Below are positions 34,777 to 42,258 of a DNA stretch of 64,000 nucleotides, piece by piece (within the stretch, counting starts at the first letter, position 1; every line of letters begins with the position of its first letter). Source of the DNA: Thermodesulfobacteriota bacterium (lineage in GTDB: Bacteria; Desulfobacterota_D; UBA1144; Nemesobacterales; UBA2774); contig BQJP01000012.1 of assembly GCA_021604765.1 (NCBI GenBank), positions 1 to 64,000 on the forward strand, written 5' to 3'. A model generated the notes under the pieces. The model was not told the origin of the DNA. It did not search any database and worked only from the letters and a program-made list of their open reading frames with translations. Made by a program: the position numbers and the translations under genes.

Positions 34777-34850
34777 TGGGCCGTCGTCTAATGGTAGGAC
34801 CCTGGCCTTTGACGCCAGTTGTAGAGGTTCGAATCCTCTCGGCCCAGCCA
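34777..34850 (+). tRNA. tRNA-Gln (anticodon TTG)
   Basis: A 74-nt cloverleaf: acceptor TGGGCCG with CGGCCCA, anticodon arm CTGGC-CTTTGAC-GCCAG with TTG at 34-36, T-arm AGAGG-TTCGAAT-CCTCT, discriminator G and encoded CCA. The U1-A72 pair is typical of bacterial tRNA-Gln. Confidence 0.96.
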
Positions 34851-34977
34851 ACGTTTCATAGCTTACTGTAAACACTATATTATTATATATCCCTGACTCC
34901 TCCTTTCGTCGTCAGTACCAATAAATCAATCATTGATCATGCAAATCTATATAATATATGATCCCATAGGAGTAAAA

Positions 34978-35022
34978 ATGAGTACTTATTATCGGAAGCA
35001 TGGCTTTTTAGTAGATCATTAA
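34978..35022 (+). CDS. Possible 14-residue leader peptide upstream of the patatin/ion-channel operon
   Basis: A small frame, ATG to TAA, encoding MSTYYRKHGFLVDH, with AGGAG five bases before the ATG. It lies about 75 bases ahead of the patatin gene and after tRNA-Gln. No attenuator hairpin is obvious between its stop and the patatin gene, apart from the palindrome at 35037-35051. It could be a leader peptide or chance. Confidence 0.25.
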   Translation: MSTYYRKHGFLVDH

Positions 35023-35036
35023 AACTTGCATTAAGG

Positions 35037-35051
35037 TTATCAAGTTGATAA
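35037..35051. promoter_or_regulatory. Palindrome upstream of the patatin gene
   Basis: TTATCAAgTTGATAA is a perfect 7-1-7 inverted repeat. Its right arm contains TTGATA, a usable -35 element (a poor -10, AAATAT, follows after 17 bases), so a repressor bound here would cover the promoter. No regulator gene is adjacent. Confidence 0.35.
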
Positions 35052-35096
35052 AAGTACTAATATAGCAAAATATCTTGCAGTGGAGGGATGCAAATC

Positions 35097-36395
35097 ATGA
35101 AAGGGTCAAAATATCAGGTGCTTAATAATAACTATAGGATTAAAAGAATTGGTTTTCTATTCTTTTTATTGTCTGTGTTTGCATTTTCAATTTTAATTAC
35201 TGGTTGTGCAAAAACTTACACACGCACAGCCCTGCCTCAGAATCTAGAAGATCAAGTTCGAGTAGCAGGATTTGAAGATGTGAAGGGATTAAGGGCATGG
35301 GGGGATAAACCTAACAAAGAGTTTAATGAAACTGCTATACTTTCTGTGAAGAAAGAATCTCAATCATCTACTCAGATAGGAGATGAAGTTTATTTCTTAG
35401 CTATAAGTGGTGGAGGTGCTGATGGTGCTTATGGAGTAGGACTTCTAAACGGATGGAGCGAAGCAGGTACACGGCCAGAATTTAAATTAGTTACAGGAAT
35501 TTCTACAGGTGCCCTTATAGCCACTTTTGCCTTTTTGGGGTCTGATTACGATCAGCAATTAAAAGAATCTTATACGGGTTCATCAGATGAAGATATCTAC
35601 ACAAAGAAAAGCATACTCACTGCTTATTGGAGAGATTCCTTATTTGGTGTAGAGCCACTTAAAAATCTAATTGCTCAAAACATAACTCAGGAAGTGCTAC
35701 AAGCAGTTGCAAGGGAATATGAGAAGGGAAGGTTTTTACTTGTAGGAACTACTCAATTAGATGCACAACGTTTAGTAATTTGGAATATGGGAGCTATCGC
35801 TGCAAGTGGGAAGCCTGGAGCGCTAGATCTCTTTAGATCTGTACTTCTGGCAAGTGCAAGTATGCCTTCAATATTCCCACCTGTTTTCATACCTGTAAGC
35901 GTAAATGGGCAAACCTATGAGGAAATGCACGTTGACGGTGGAACATTTACCGAAGTGATGCTCTACAATGAAGCCCTATCCCCAATGCTTAAAAATGTAG
36001 ACGATGTAAAAAAAATAGTTGGCGACAATGAGACATTTGAGAAATTTCTTAAGAGAAAAAGAGTTCTTTACGTGATTAAGAATGATCAAAAAGAACCAGA
36101 GTGGAGTGATGTTCAAGACAGAATTGCACCTATAGCTGGAAGAGCAATTGGAACTCTAATCAAGTCTCATTATGACGGAGATATCTACAGGATTTATGTT
36201 CTCTCTGAGAGGGATGAGATTTCATTTAACCTAGCTTCTATTCCAGAGGGAACCAACATAAAAACAACCAATGGAATGTTTGATACAGTGTATATGCAGA
36301 AGCTTTATAACTTAGCTTTTGAGAAAGCTAAGAACGGCTATCCATGGAGCAATTATCCTCCGGGCTTTCAACCTGTAGAAGAAGGACAAGAATAG
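35097..36395 (+). CDS. Patatin-like phospholipase lipoprotein
   Basis: A 432-residue lipid hydrolase. The signal peptide ends in lipobox ITGC (C37), so it is anchored in a membrane from the periplasmic side. The patatin domain shows the oxyanion motif SGGGADGAYG (near 104-113), the nucleophile elbow GISTG (134-138, S136) and the Asp of the dyad in HVDGGTF (D280). The start ATG at 35097 has GGAGG ten bases upstream; an ATG three codons earlier abuts that site. The ion-channel gene begins two bases after the stop. Phospholipid hydrolysis is the expected activity; its physiological target is unknown. Confidence 0.88.
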   Translation: MKGSKYQVLNNNYRIKRIGFLFFLLSVFAFSILITGCAKTYTRTALPQNLEDQVRVAGFEDVKGLRAWGDKPNKEFNETAILSVKKESQSSTQIGDEVYFLAISGGGADGAYGVGLLNGWSEAGTRPEFKLVTGISTGALIATFAFLGSDYDQQLKESYTGSSDEDIYTKKSILTAYWRDSLFGVEPLKNLIAQNITQEVLQAVAREYEKGRFLLVGTTQLDAQRLVIWNMGAIAASGKPGALDLFRSVLLASASMPSIFPPVFIPVSVNGQTYEEMHVDGGTFTEVMLYNEALSPMLKNVDDVKKIVGDNETFEKFLKRKRVLYVIKNDQKEPEWSDVQDRIAPIAGRAIGTLIKSHYDGDIYRIYVLSERDEISFNLASIPEGTNIKTTNGMFDTVYMQKLYNLAFEKAKNGYPWSNYPPGFQPVEEGQE

Positions 36396-36397
36396 AA

Positions 36398-37447
36398 ATG
36401 GGTAGACTCCTATCTGTAGGGCTAATATTACTATGCTTTACTTCATTTGCACTATCTGAGGAGGAGTTTAAACTCGGCCCTCCAAATCAAGACAGGCCTG
36501 TTGAGGTTAAGGCCCACTTTGAACTTCATGACATAAATGAAATTAATGATGAAGCGGATACATTTGAGTTCTCAGGTGTACTAACACTCAAGTGGGTGGA
36601 CCCAAGAGCAGCTTTTGATCCTGCTCTGGCTGGTGTTGATGAAAGAATCTTTCAGGGAGCCTATCAGTTCAATGAGGTTGCGACTGGATGGTACCCGCAG
36701 TTATTCCTTATAAATGAGTCTGGCCTATACGAAATTAATGGAGTTACATTACGTATTCTTCCTGATGGAACATCAACCCTAATCCAGACAATTAACGCTA
36801 CGGCGGAAGTAAGACTAGATATGAGAAAATTTCCTTTTGACAAACAGCGTCTGGATGCAATTTTCCAAGTCCTGGGGTTTGACAATGGTGAAGTATTGCT
36901 GCATCAAGAATCTGATAGTACCGAGCCAGTAGAGATTCTATTTCCAATACCACAATGGACTATAAGTAGTCTCACTCAATCTGTACGTGATTTCCCCTCA
37001 TATTATGCTGGGACCAAAGGGATTTCATCGACTTTTGTCTTAAGTGTTGATGTAAAGCGAAAACCTTTTTATTTAATCCGACTTGTCGTTATACCTCTGA
37101 TTGTAATTGTGCTCCTTTCTTTTACCGTATTTTGGATGGATAAATCCTCACTCGGTGACAGGCTTAATGTCTCATTCATAGGGATTCTGACAGGTGTTGC
37201 TTACCTGCTAGTTACTAGTGATCATTTGCCTAACATTTCTTATTTTACACTTATCCACGGATTCCTGAATCTCAGCTACTTAACTATGTGTGCCACAGTT
37301 GTGATCAACCTTATAGTGGGCTCACTTGATAAGCAGGGTAAAAGTAAAGCTGGTGATCGTGTCGATCAAGTTTGTAGGTGGGCATTTCCTATAGTTTATT
37401 TTGGACTGTTGATAATAATGTTTGTGATAGCTGACCTCACCTTCTAA
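36398..37447 (+). CDS. Pentameric ligand-gated ion channel homologue (GLIC/ELIC type)
   Basis: A 349-residue Cys-loop receptor homologue. After a signal peptide (1-20) comes a beta-rich extracellular domain with the conserved KWVDPR (65-70) and FPFD (145-148) motifs, lacking the Cys pair of animal receptors as usual in bacteria. Four membrane helices follow: M1 at 223-246 with its Pro (IPLIVIV), M2 252-273 (LGDRLNVSFIGILTGVAYLL), M3 282-308 and M4 328-347. The M2-M3 link is SDHLPNISY. No large cytoplasmic domain is present. Gating ligand and ion selectivity cannot be read. It starts two bases after the patatin stop, so both are one operon. Confidence 0.88.
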   Translation: MGRLLSVGLILLCFTSFALSEEEFKLGPPNQDRPVEVKAHFELHDINEINDEADTFEFSGVLTLKWVDPRAAFDPALAGVDERIFQGAYQFNEVATGWYPQLFLINESGLYEINGVTLRILPDGTSTLIQTINATAEVRLDMRKFPFDKQRLDAIFQVLGFDNGEVLLHQESDSTEPVEILFPIPQWTISSLTQSVRDFPSYYAGTKGISSTFVLSVDVKRKPFYLIRLVVIPLIVIVLLSFTVFWMDKSSLGDRLNVSFIGILTGVAYLLVTSDHLPNISYFTLIHGFLNLSYLTMCATVVINLIVGSLDKQGKSKAGDRVDQVCRWAFPIVYFGLLIIMFVIADLTF

Positions 37448-37495
37448 ATTCTTAATATCTCTATTATCAGCTGACTAGAGACTGGACCTAACAAA

Positions 37496-38866
37496 CTAAG
37501 ATCCAGTACAAACTTCATCTGCCGACGGACACCCGACACATGTGCCGATTGATGGATCATCGCACAAACATGCGTTGCACCATAGTGCTCCGCTAAAATC
37601 TGCACCGAACAATATCGCACCGGTTAAATTTGACTCCAGTAACCTTGCATCTGTTAAATCGGCAAAGGCCAAATTCGCATTGGTTAAATTTGTTTCGTTT
37701 AAATCCGCAGTGTTCAATCTCGCCTCAAACAAATTCGCGCCCGTCAAATTCGCAAAGAACAAATCTGCAATACGCATATCCGCACCAGTGAAATCCGCTC
37801 CGGACAGATCTGCGCCGGTCAAATCAGCGCCGAATAATACCGTATCTCTTAAGTTGGCATTAATTATGACCGCAGTTTCGAAAAGTGCGTTTTCCAAATT
37901 TGCACCTTGGAAAGTAGCATTTTCCAAATTTGTATCTGGTAAAAACGCAAAGCTTAAATCCGCATCCGCCATATTAGCACCCATCATATCTGAAAAGTCA
38001 AATTCCGCTTCTATCAAATTAGCAGAGTTTAAATTTGCATTGACCAAAGTAGCAAATGTTATATTAGCACCCAATAAATTTGCACCAATCAAATTCGCGC
38101 CCGTCAAATTCGAAAGGAACAACCTTGCTCCCATCAAATCCGCACCCGCCAAATTTGCTCCTGACAAATCGCAAAACACACATCTGTTTGTACTCAGAAG
38201 TACTTCTACGTTTTCCTCTACTGGTCCAGGTTGAGGTTGAGGTATAGTTTGAGTTTGAGTTTGAGCTTGAGCTTCTTTGGTTACAGTCTTTTCTATTCGT
38301 TTAAACATATTTGCAGCAGCCAGTTTGAAACTGTTGAACAATCCCTGTGTATTTTGAGCTTGCTCTATATTTTCAGGATTTGGAATTATAAAAATAGGAT
38401 GAGTGGTCTCTATTCTTCCATCATGATGAAGAGTAATCACATAATCCCCTGCCTCCAATACAACCGTTTTACATTCTCCGTTCACATCCAATCTAAATAT
38501 CTCCTTACCCGCACTATCATCAAGCTCCATAAAATGCCCTGCTTCTCCATCATCATCTTCCCAGCAGAAGGTATGATCAACCGTACGGCTATATCTTAAT
38601 GGTATAGTGTCATTTCCTGTCTCCCCTGTATCGTTTTCAGGAGTATCAGAGTCTGGATGCTCAAGGAACTTTACTACTATCTGGTTTTCAAGGTTGGCTT
38701 GTAAACTTGGGTTGTTTGAAAAATCATTTTCAGTAAGTGCTTGTGTGTTTCCTTGCCCCCCACCGTTATCACTACAGCCCCCGATTGCAAATATAGATAT
38801 CAACCCGAGTAGCAATACAGCACTACACTTTCCAAAAAAATTTCTTGGTTTTTGTAATGTAATCAT
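37496..38866 (-). CDS. Pentapeptide-repeat lipoprotein with Cys-rich caps
   Basis: A 456-residue lipoprotein: lipobox IGGC (C31), a region of about 130 residues (60-195) of unknown fold with HFMELDD and a beta-rich segment, a Gln/Pro linker (199-215), then about 39 pentapeptide repeats of A(D/N)LxG type from residue 233 to 428, which should form a right-handed quadrilateral beta-helix. The repeats are bracketed by Cys: C229/C232 before, and C430, C433, C435, C443, C446 and C453 after. GGAGGGAGAG precedes the ATG. Function unknown; the repeat does not imply gyrase binding outside the cytoplasm. Confidence 0.85.
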   Translation of the reverse strand: MITLQKPRNFFGKCSAVLLLGLISIFAIGGCSDNGGGQGNTQALTENDFSNNPSLQANLENQIVVKFLEHPDSDTPENDTGETGNDTIPLRYSRTVDHTFCWEDDDGEAGHFMELDDSAGKEIFRLDVNGECKTVVLEAGDYVITLHHDGRIETTHPIFIIPNPENIEQAQNTQGLFNSFKLAAANMFKRIEKTVTKEAQAQTQTQTIPQPQPGPVEENVEVLLSTNRCVFCDLSGANLAGADLMGARLFLSNLTGANLIGANLLGANITFATLVNANLNSANLIEAEFDFSDMMGANMADADLSFAFLPDTNLENATFQGANLENALFETAVIINANLRDTVLFGADLTGADLSGADFTGADMRIADLFFANLTGANLFEARLNTADLNETNLTNANLAFADLTDARLLESNLTGAILFGADFSGALWCNACLCDDPSIGTCVGCPSADEVCTGS

Positions 38867-38992
38867 ATCTCTCCCTCCTTGCCTATTACTACTGGCTCAC
38901 CACTTCTTATAATACTATAACAGTGATTTTGAATGCAATACGGAATTTTAATTGAGTAGTCTTGAATTGTAATAATAGAAATCAAAGTTTAA

Positions 38993-39892
38993 TCATGCAG
39001 GCATTTCACTTATTCTATTACATAAACGAACAAACGCGTGCTCTAGATTAATGTTTAAGAGATCTAAAAATTTCTTTTTTAATGGTCGTTCTCGCCAGTC
39101 AAAATATCTTTGATATAGCTCCTCATTGTATGACAACTCCTGCAAGTAAGCCGCGAGTGATTCAGGATTATCCCACTTGGAAGCATCAATAAAACAGTTC
39201 TCACCGGGACTGAAGTCCTCAATGTTTGGAGCGCCCAGATATACTGGAACAGATCCTGCAATCAGTGGCTCATAGAATTTTTCAGTAACATAGTCAGTGC
39301 TTATAGAGTTTTCAAAAGCAAGAGTGAATTTGTATTGGGAGATGATATCCATCTTGGTCTGACGTCCTTTGTCTCTATTGAGAATATGAGTATTGAGCAA
39401 CTCTCCGTATGAATCAACTTGAATGTGGCCCATCAACTGCATTAGCAGCTGAATTCTTCCGCTTTTATTCAAGGGCCTTGAAATAAATGTATTTGCTATA
39501 TTTTCCGGTTTCTTTGGACTAGGAGTGTGCTTAATTAAATCTGTAAAATCATTGGTCACATAGGGAACCGGAATGTCCGAATCAAGATGGTATGTCATGG
39601 TCATATCAAAATGAGACATGAAGTGCCGATCCATCATAATAGGATAATAAGAATCCGATTCCATAGACCATGCAACCCAGATCTGATCTTTTTTCTTGTT
39701 CACATTTTCTTTTAAGAGCAAGTCTGTAGATAGTGTGGGTATATGAAAAACTACTGCAGCAGCCCGATCCATCATGTTCCTATCTGTTGTTATCACAAAC
39801 CCTTGCGGTATCTCTTTTGAGGGATAATTCAAGGGAATATTCCACATTTTATTATAAAATAATACTATCTTGGGTGTATTCATATCAATCAT
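38993..39892 (-). CDS. GT10-family (alpha-1,3-fucosyltransferase-like) glycosyltransferase
   Basis: A 299-residue glycosyltransferase. The C-terminal half has the donor-binding signature of family GT10: YKFTLAFENSISTDYVTEKFYEPLIAGSVPVYLGAPNIEDF (about residues 187-227). The N-terminal half contains WSMESDSYYPIM and FDMTMTYHLDSDIPVPY, also typical. It would move fucose (or a related deoxysugar) from a GDP-sugar to a surface glycan. It is an orphan: no GDP-fucose synthesis or other glycan genes are nearby. An ATG three codons downstream is an alternative start. Confidence 0.85.
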   Translation of the reverse strand: MIDMNTPKIVLFYNKMWNIPLNYPSKEIPQGFVITTDRNMMDRAAAVVFHIPTLSTDLLLKENVNKKKDQIWVAWSMESDSYYPIMMDRHFMSHFDMTMTYHLDSDIPVPYVTNDFTDLIKHTPSPKKPENIANTFISRPLNKSGRIQLLMQLMGHIQVDSYGELLNTHILNRDKGRQTKMDIISQYKFTLAFENSISTDYVTEKFYEPLIAGSVPVYLGAPNIEDFSPGENCFIDASKWDNPESLAAYLQELSYNEELYQRYFDWRERPLKKKFLDLLNINLEHAFVRLCNRISEMPA

Positions 39893-40107
39893 TCAACGTA
39901 ATTTTATACTTATATGTAATGTTTTATGGATAATACATCAAGAACCTTAGTTATAAGTGATATAAATCTCACATTATGTTTATAATAGTGAATATCCGGG
40001 TATTTTTAAACTATACGGTAAAGAGTGAAGACTCCAGTTCCCGAGATATTTGATTAATCACACAGTTCAAGAAAACTAGTATTATTTAACAAAACCTTAA
40101 AAGCTAT

Positions 40108-42258
40108 ATGAGCACTTCACATAAAAACAATTTAAATACGGATCAAAGCCGGGCTGTAAAGCACTTGGGAGGGCCACTTCTTGTACTTGCTGGTGCCGGT
40201 TCTGGAAAAACCAGAATTATCACTGAAAGGATCTCTAATCTTATAAGTGAGCACAATGTAAGACCTTTTAATATACTTGCCGTGACTTTTACTAATAAAG
40301 CGGCGAACGAGATGAAAGAGAGGGTTTATCGTCTTGCTCAGAAAGAAGCTAAAAATGTTTGGATAGGAACATTTCATTCAACCTGTCTTAGAATTCTGAA
40401 AAGAGATATTAACAAATTAGATGGATATAACCGGAATTTCATAATATATGATGACGGAGATCAATTAAAACTTATAAAAGACTGCATGGGGCGGCTTAAT
40501 ATTGGGGATAAACTAGTAAGCCCTAAATCAGCCAGGTCTCAAATAGACGGTGCCAAGAACAAAACTATAGGACCCAATGATCCTGAGTTAAGAGAATATG
40601 ACAAACATGTTCAGAGGATATATTCGTTATACGAAGAGGAGCTTAGAAAATCAAATGCGCTTGATTTCGGAGATCTCCTCCACCTAACTGTAAAACTCTT
40701 AGAGAAAAATCCCGATGTCTTAGAGAGCTATCAAAACCAATTCCAGTATATATTAGTAGATGAGTACCAGGACACAAACCATGTTCAGTACAAAATTGTC
40801 GAGATGTTATCTAGAAAACACAGAAACATATTCGTTGTGGGAGATGACAATCAATCAATTTACGGTTGGCGCGGGGCAGATATTAAGAACATACTTAACT
40901 TCGAAAAAGATTTTACGGATGCAAAGATCATTAAGCTTGAGCAAAACTACAGATCCACGCAAACTATCCTTGATGCTGCCAATAAGCTTATAACACATAA
41001 TAAAAACAGACATGAAAAAAACCTGCACACCAAAAATGATGTGGGTGATTTAATAAACTACTATGAAGCTAGTGACGATAGGGACGAAGCCAAGCATATA
41101 TCCTCACAGATCGTAAACCTTAAAAAAACCTCAGACTACACATATAAAGATATAGCCGTCTTTTTTAGAACCAATACACAGTCAAGATTGATTGAAGAGG
41201 AATTACTACAAAAAAGTATTCCTTATAAAATGGTAGGCGGTACAGAGTTTTATAAGAGAAAGGAGATTAAAGACATTCTCGCTTTTCTTAAAGTAGTAGT
41301 AAACCCTTCAGACGAAATAAGCCTTAAGCGAATTATTAATGTCCCACCCAGAGGCATTGGTAATGTGACAATTAATAACATTGATGAGATTACAAGAGAC
41401 AGAGGAGTCTCTTTTTATGAGGCAATTCAAATTGCTCTTAAAGAAAAGAGTATTTCAAATAGTGTTCTGATTAAAATTGATAGGCTAAACAAATTGCTTA
41501 CAAAACTAATAGAGTTCCCTGAAAAGGATGATATTGTCGGTCTTATTAACCATGTACTTCATAAAACCAAATATTTAGACATGCTGGAGAAAGAAGAGGA
41601 GAGAAGAGAGAATATAGGTGAGATTATAAATCTGGCTGTTGAATTCCAAAAAGAACGTGAGGAACCTACACTAAATGATTTTCTGGACAGTGTTTCACTT
41701 GCGAGCGATCTTGACAACTACTCTGAAAACAGCGATCAGGTAACTCTTATGACTCTTCATTCGGCAAAAGGACTGGAATTCCCAGTAGTATTCATTGTAG
41801 GCATGGAAGAAAATCTTCTCCCCCACTTCAACTCAACAATAAACGGGCAGGTTGAAGAAGAAAGAAGACTATTTTATGTTGGAATAACAAGGGCTAAAGA
41901 AAAAGTATATCTCGCCGGCGCTGCGAGACGGATGGTATTTGGAAAGCAGCAAGGCTCAATCCCTTCAAGGTTCATATCAGAACTCCCGGAAGAGCTTATA
42001 AACTTAGAGACCCGTAAATTTGAAGGTAGTTATCAATCTAAAAAAGCTAAGCGGTCTTCAACAATAACCACTTCTATACCAACTAGAAACTATCAAGACA
42101 CAGGACGTTATAAAGTCGGACAAAAAATTGTCCACTCGGCTTTTGGTGAGGGTCTGATAAAAAAGGTAGAAGGCTCAGGAGACGACGCAAAAGTAACAAT
42201 ATTCTTCCCCAGCGTAGGTGGTCATAAGAAAATCATTGCAAGTTATCTGGAGAATTAA
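40108..42258 (+). CDS. pcrA: ATP-dependent DNA helicase, PcrA/UvrD type
   Basis: A 716-residue superfamily 1A 3'-5' helicase. Motifs in order: LNTDQSRAV (Q-motif), AGAGSGKTRI (Walker A, 28-37), TFTNKAANEM (Ia), LVDEYQDTN (II), VGDDNQSIYGWRGAD (III), LEQNYRST (IV), TLMTLHSAKGLEFPVVF (V) and EERRLFYVGITRAK (VI). The C-terminal VGQKIVHSAFGEGLIKKVEGSG...IIASYLEN is the Tudor-like tail of PcrA, which contacts RNA polymerase. It acts in nucleotide-excision repair and in clearing stalled forks. Ends eight bases from convergent selO. Confidence 0.94.
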   Translation: MSTSHKNNLNTDQSRAVKHLGGPLLVLAGAGSGKTRIITERISNLISEHNVRPFNILAVTFTNKAANEMKERVYRLAQKEAKNVWIGTFHSTCLRILKRDINKLDGYNRNFIIYDDGDQLKLIKDCMGRLNIGDKLVSPKSARSQIDGAKNKTIGPNDPELREYDKHVQRIYSLYEEELRKSNALDFGDLLHLTVKLLEKNPDVLESYQNQFQYILVDEYQDTNHVQYKIVEMLSRKHRNIFVVGDDNQSIYGWRGADIKNILNFEKDFTDAKIIKLEQNYRSTQTILDAANKLITHNKNRHEKNLHTKNDVGDLINYYEASDDRDEAKHISSQIVNLKKTSDYTYKDIAVFFRTNTQSRLIEEELLQKSIPYKMVGGTEFYKRKEIKDILAFLKVVVNPSDEISLKRIINVPPRGIGNVTINNIDEITRDRGVSFYEAIQIALKEKSISNSVLIKIDRLNKLLTKLIEFPEKDDIVGLINHVLHKTKYLDMLEKEEERRENIGEIINLAVEFQKEREEPTLNDFLDSVSLASDLDNYSENSDQVTLMTLHSAKGLEFPVVFIVGMEENLLPHFNSTINGQVEEERRLFYVGITRAKEKVYLAGAARRMVFGKQQGSIPSRFISELPEELINLETRKFEGSYQSKKAKRSSTITTSIPTRNYQDTGRYKVGQKIVHSAFGEGLIKKVEGSGDDAKVTIFFPSVGGHKKIIASYLEN

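Follow-up and report, generated by a model that had tools for sequence, protein, structure and literature searches.

Patatin and channel genes

The analysed window, a stretch of 64,000 nucleotides from a Thermodesulfobacteriota bacterium (G000 in our genome sample), holds a patatin gene followed directly by the gene of a pentameric ligand-gated ion channel (pLGIC). Both are well-formed members of known families.

The patatin gene (35097–36395, + strand) is an intact reading frame for a lipoprotein patatin-like phospholipase of 432 aa, which scored 78.3 bits against Pfam PF01734 (cut-off 27.7 bits). All six copies of its subfamily (see below) matched the same Pfam family and, by sequence, are exported lipoproteins. 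In the alignment of the six members, the lipobox Cys37 (35205–35207), the oxyanion motif GGGxxG (GGG at residues 105–107), the nucleophile Ser136 in GISTG (35502–35504) and Asp280 in DGG (35934–35936) were invariant. The motifs GGGxxG, GxSxG and DGG are common to patatin-like phospholipases of PF01734, including CBASS effectors and VipD. The protein differs from these phospholipases in its N-terminal lipoprotein signal and in about 150 additional C-terminal residues beyond the Pfam match, and its sequence is only distantly similar to any solved structure. Its predicted structure, based on a shallow alignment, had a pLDDT of 36, and no reading was drawn from it. The preferred start is the ATG at 35097, as a Shine-Dalgarno-like GGAGGG (35082–35087, + strand, read directly from the sequence) lies 9 bases upstream. 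An alternative in-frame ATG at 35088 leaves no spacing to this motif and is less likely. Judging by family and lipobox, the protein should be exported, lipid-anchored and able to hydrolyse ester-linked lipids on the periplasmic side.

The channel gene (36398–37447, + strand) is intact and complete. It encodes a Pro-loop pLGIC of the GLIC/ELIC type (349 aa) with a signal peptide, a periplasmic ligand-binding domain and four transmembrane helices. Pfam detected Neur_chan_LBD (PF02931, 55.9 bits, cut-off 26 bits) and Neur_chan_memb (PF02932, 33.4 bits, cut-off 28.1 bits). The match to NCBIfam LGIC_1 had an E value of 4e-67, yet stayed under the strict cut-off of that model. The best solved relatives by sequence were GLIC chains (E about 1e-28). 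An AlphaFold monomer model (mean pLDDT 81) matched GLIC, sTeLIC, ELIC and DeCLIC in Foldseek, with TM about 0.72–0.80 over about 320 residues. The KWVDPR motif is present, and the Pro-loop FPFD (36830–36841, + strand) contains P146 and D148, both invariant among 16 sequences.

A beta ligand-binding domain followed by a four-helix membrane domain, a Pro-loop of the form FPxD, and a pore helix that reads as having a hydrophobic 9′ and charged selectivity positions place the protein among the prokaryotic pLGICs. It is not an animal Cys-loop receptor in the strict sense: the disulphide-closed 13-residue loop is absent, and the extracellular domain has no cysteine. With GLIC (Gloeobacter) and ELIC (Erwinia) it has in common the fold, the domain order, the Pro-loop FPFD, the four helices and the lack of Cys-loop cysteines, at about 20–24% identity.

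The pore helix M2 (−2′ to 20′, GDRLNVSFIGILTGVAYLLVTSD; 37154–37222, + strand) was located by M2 comparison, with the numbering anchored on the conserved Leu-Pro after M2. It has Leu at 9′, Asp254 at −1′, Arg at 0′ and an acidic residue at 20′. The Asp at −1′ was invariant in 16 channel relatives, and the acidic 20′ was found in nearly all of them. Animal cation channels have the pore pattern GEK. With its GDR start and acidic 20′, the M2 of the window channel is nearer to these than to GLIC. Because its −1′ Asp, 0′ Arg and acidic 20′ resemble the GEK pattern, the channel is predicted to be cation-selective. It would sit in the inner membrane with a periplasmic ligand-binding domain, and should pass cations upon ligand binding.

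The patatin stop and the channel start, both on the + strand, are separated by exactly two bases (36396–36397). A Shine-Dalgarno-like AAGGA for the channel (36382–36386, + strand, direct reading) lies inside the last codons of the patatin gene. These belong to a short extension of the patatin C-terminus that the copies of G006 do not share. A weak scan found neither a terminator-like site in the region, including the gap between the genes, nor a + strand promoter-like site between them or just before the channel. The initial annotation had described a lipoprotein patatin (GISTG, DGG) ending two bases before a complete GLIC/ELIC-type channel (KWVDPR, FPFD, four helices), and intact reading frames, Pfam matches, motifs, the GLIC relatives and the model bear this out. 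It had also called the pair a two-gene operon. The tight pairing is there. With two bases between the genes and a ribosome-binding site at the end of the patatin, they probably form a small bicistronic, co-transcribed unit.

An accessory slot between tRNA-Gln and uvrD

Patatin and channel are part of a 5.2-kb accessory block (34851–40107), as delimited by slot comparison and edge alignment. The left border is tRNA-Gln (TTG; 34777–34850, + strand, ARAGORN), which is conserved in congeners, and the right border is a uvrD-type helicase gene (40108–42258, + strand, Pfam), which is conserved in the family. The block is inserted exactly between the two and holds, in this order, the patatin, the channel, a pentapeptide-repeat lipoprotein convergent with the pair (456 aa; 37496–38866, − strand, PF00805) and a GT10 fucosyltransferase-like gene (38993–39892, − strand, PF00852). 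The pentapeptide repeats create long frames on the opposite strand (37542–38234, + strand) that are not likely to be genes. A GT10 relative in G007 sits between tRNA-Val and tRNA-Gln, i.e. before tRNA-Gln.

Five family members (G002, G005, G006, G009 and G013) have an empty slot, with the order ThrRS, tRNA-Val, tRNA-Gln, uvrD and a distance of about 90–250 bp from tRNA-Gln to uvrD. The whole block is therefore an insertion. The congener G004 carries a DJ-1/PfpI protein, a thiamine-diphosphate enzyme, an orthologous channel and a collagen-like protein in the same slot. This channel is the closest orthologue (73% protein identity) and has an unrelated gene 300 bp upstream; no patatin was found in the G004 slot. 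Being empty in five genomes and filled with different cargo in G000 and G004, the slot next to tRNA-Gln is thus a variable site for accessory genes. A duplicated tRNA-Gln end, as an attachment-site scar, was sought within the window and not found.

We consider it fairly probable that patatin and channel are co-expressed envelope genes joined as accessory cargo in this variable slot, with no dedicated coupling. They would be carried as one small bicistronic unit, and the reason for joint expression would be that both proteins act at the envelope. The lipid-anchored patatin would hydrolyse ester-linked lipids on the periplasmic side, and the inner-membrane channel, with its ligand-binding domain in the periplasm, would pass cations upon ligand binding. 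Each would work alone, neither needing the other. The orthologous channel without patatin in the same slot of G004 and the slot left empty in five family members agree with this explanation, although a two-base gap is tighter than usual for accidental cargo. Tight adjacency within an accessory slot is no proof of a working pair.

Two other explanations touch on the same evidence. In a dedicated lipid-signalling pair, products of the patatin would gate or desensitise the channel. The two-base gap and the co-orientation point in this direction, but the G004 channel does without a patatin in the very same slot, and we regard such a pair as unlikely. The other is pure chance, i.e. two unrelated inserts with no meaningful common transcript or process. 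A variable slot by a tRNA gene, its cargo differing from genome to genome, is where this might be expected, yet the two-base spacing speaks against it, as does a ribosome-binding site that arises within the end of the patatin gene. Chance juxtaposition appears quite unlikely to us.

Patatin–channel neighbourhoods within the phylum

Across 58 species genomes of the phylum, the lipoprotein patatin subfamily was sharply bounded, with six copies in four genomes (E below 1e-180) and no further match under 1e-6. Three of the six have a pLGIC gene within about 600 bp, namely those of G000, G010 and Desulfobacterota bacterium AH_259_B03_O07 (G022). The G022 genes are on the same strand with a 468-nt gap, and the channel is orthologous. 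In G010 the genes are divergent and about 600 bp apart, and the channel belongs to another subfamily.

By a simple uniform-placement estimate, 0.011 such cases were expected outside G000 and 2 were observed (P about 6e-5). The value becomes 1.4e-3 if accessory genes are confined to a fifth of the genome, and 0.01–0.05 if G010 alone is taken as independent. A pLGIC occurs in all four genomes with a subfamily patatin, vs 13 of the 58 overall (hypergeometric 0.0017, uncorrected for relatedness). The proximity of half of the patatins to a pLGIC (P about 6e-5 or 1.4e-3) and the 4/4 vs 13/58 count weigh against mere accessory cargo. This above-chance recurrence near pLGICs in G022 and G010 also favours a dedicated pair, and proximity in three genomes and two channel subfamilies speaks against pure chance.

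The G022 pair is located in a GC-rich island of an AT-rich contig, with high values for the channel (GC3 0.745) and the next two genes, 0.44 for the patatin and about 0.35–0.41 GC for the flanks, which suggests horizontal arrival. In the patatin tree, the G000 and G022 copies do not group together; as a test of shared descent of the two pairs, holding them together gave an AU p of 0.075. The G010 patatin has its sister in G006 (support 99/100), and no channel was found beside the latter on its contig. Thus, the pairs recur in the phylum, yet they are not conserved, and the nearest relatives of two of them are without linkage. Adjacency was not maintained between close relatives or across lineages; the three pairs belong to one phylum only.

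The accessory-cargo explanation gains from the GC-rich island of G022, and from G010, with its divergent orientation, its channel of another subfamily and a sister patatin in G006 that has no channel beside it. That two of the three pairs have nearest relatives without linkage would also be consistent with pure chance. A dedicated pair is weakened by the G000 and G022 patatins not being a demonstrated clade (AU p 0.075). A further-reaching proposal is that the lineage repeatedly recruited lipoprotein patatins next to pLGICs of at least two subfamilies as an enzyme–channel signalling unit, with local lipolysis gating or desensitising the channel; this we judge unlikely.

The patatins of this subfamily have other neighbours in common. 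A DUF3313 lipoprotein and a small membrane protein accompany those of G006 and G010, and DUF2092 together with a glycine-rich DUF6515 or similar protein accompanies those of G006 and G022. These neighbourhoods are L070 (G006:C27, 220–5046), L065 (G010:C100, 5414–8033) and L051 (G022:C388, 7370–12180). DUF2092 is also found near channels in L044 and L066. Another subfamily patatin, in L068 (G006:C116, 1–5403), lies between an AsmA-family gene and an apparent efflux outer-membrane factor lipoprotein, a fragment without Pfam match that was called by sequence reading.

Occurrence beyond the phylum

The channel belongs to a scattered subfamily (VFWMD..SLGDR) present in several phyla. Channel relatives were found in 16 named genomes, including Desulfobacteraceae, Binatia, Thiohalocapsa, Myxococcota, Haliea, Methyloceanibacter and Phycisphaerae. 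No patatin was detected near the channel in 14 of them; several of these loci were short, and the absence applies to the DNA examined. The other two were G022, with its 468-nt gap, and a member of the Phycisphaerae (4.3 kb). The latter pair (L042) has another gene between patatin and channel and was too loose to count. In eight of the 16, the patatin family occurs somewhere in the genome. A plasmid search with the channel as query gave no match. Nearly all relatives, including those without a patatin nearby, retain the M2 motif GDR...D (−2′ to 20′), and channel function is therefore independent of the pairing. Retention of the motif without a patatin partner is in line with accessory cargo.

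Even genome samples were taken from two other phyla (395 genomes, and 399 of Pseudomonadota). The patatin family occurred in 13 and 42 of them, respectively; for the channel domain the counts were 15 and 7. Genomes with one family thus nearly always lacked the other: both occurred together in one genome (G062, on different contigs), vs about 1.2 expected over the 395 + 399 genomes. Outside the phylum, there is no general association between the two families. The co-occurrence by genome in the window phylum (4/4 vs 13/58) was thus not seen in the 395- and 399-genome samples, as would be expected for accessory cargo. For a dedicated pair, the lack of co-occurrence in two other phyla is unfavourable, as is the absence beyond the phylum save for one loose case.

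The initial annotation had suggested that the channel senses or responds to membrane lipids or lipolysis products, or that the pair works together against another membrane. A dedicated patatin–channel system was not supported, with no patatin in the G004 slot or, in the DNA examined, near the channel in 14 of the 16 relatives, and with the families uncorrelated in two phyla. It had also stated that homologues unlinked in related genomes, with each gene expressed from its own promoter, would make the pairing a chance event. Homologues are largely unlinked (G004, 14/16 relatives), but the G022 and G010 neighbourhoods do exist. The search for co-occurrence and adjacency that it had suggested gave these two further neighbourhoods within the phylum, and no correlation in the two others.

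Lipid modulation and defence

Very little is known about what bacterial relatives of neurotransmitter receptors do physiologically. For a bacterial pLGIC, a lipid hydrolase made from the same transcript would be a natural modulator, in keeping with lipid effects on GLIC and ELIC. Abstracts of the published work describe that docosahexaenoic acid promotes GLIC desensitisation (PMC5378477), that ELIC is inhibited by polyunsaturated fatty acids (PMC8786314) and that outer-leaflet phosphatidylglycerol potentiates ELIC (PMC9668969). These effects lend support to a dedicated pair. The patatin would then free fatty acids and lysolipids, or remove phosphatidylglycerol, at the periplasmic leaflet beside the channel, and the cation flux would report or respond to envelope damage or foreign lipid. 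The lipid-sensing idea is a weak one, drawn from the published lipid sensitivity of GLIC and ELIC and not from the sequence. By the same analogy, modulation of the channel by lipolysis is plausible. For co-expressed accessory cargo, this influence would be modulatory, acting via membrane lipid composition as in other pLGICs, with no dedicated mechanism.

We also considered a defence or attack module, in which a membrane phospholipase effector and a pore would act against a phage or competitor. The patatin core is weakly similar to CBASS phospholipase effectors (29.4 bits vs a cut-off of 200), its PADLOC effector match reached 43 bits, and a cUMP-AMP-activated phospholipase is among its PDB relatives. 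However, six of six patatins are exported lipoproteins and so are not positioned to meet a cyclic nucleotide in the cytosol. Neither the slot nor the surroundings of the other patatin copies contained a recognisable nucleotidyltransferase-like gene, and the channel had no PADLOC match. Such a module is highly improbable. Membership in CBASS was rejected on the score (29.4 bits vs 200), the export of the patatin and the lack of a recognised CD-NTase/cyclase in the slot.

Partner genes of other pLGICs

Bacterial ART-LGIC operons with PBP-II or Cache proteins have been described (Tasneem et al. 2004, PMC549065). As in the window, a bacterial pLGIC gene is tightly paired there with the gene of an exported partner, but these partners are ligand-binding proteins, whereas the window neighbour is an enzyme. 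Lipases or phospholipases are not mentioned by Tasneem et al. (PMC549065). The initial annotation knew of no described patatin–channel system, and none was found in the literature searched. Thus, a pLGIC with an exported partner gene has already been described (PMC549065), a patatin as the neighbour was not found in that literature, and there is a modest chance of more to it. Other pLGICs of the phylum have lipoproteins of quite another kind (PBP-like, TTR-like) as tight neighbours, which also fits accessory cargo.

G000 has four pLGIC genes, and pLGICs were found in 13 of the 58 phylum genomes vs 7 of the 399 in the Pseudomonadota sample. Another subfamily is followed by a PBP_like_2 lipoprotein, with a 4-nt overlap in G000 and G002 and a 43-nt gap in G013 (L048, G000:C42, 6346–8423; L053, G002:C29, 7505–9591; L061, G013:C59, 3183–5298). 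These pLGIC–PBP pairs match the PBP-II pairing described in 2004 (PMC549065). A third pLGIC lineage, in five congeners (L054, L057, L059, L062 and L067 in G002, G004, G006, G001 and G005, respectively), has a lipoprotein with a weak TTR/CarboxypepD_reg-like match 36–57 bp downstream. In four of the five, a very large protein (about 1240 aa, without Pfam match) and a small lipoprotein are encoded upstream, a layout that recalls YdbH–YnbE.
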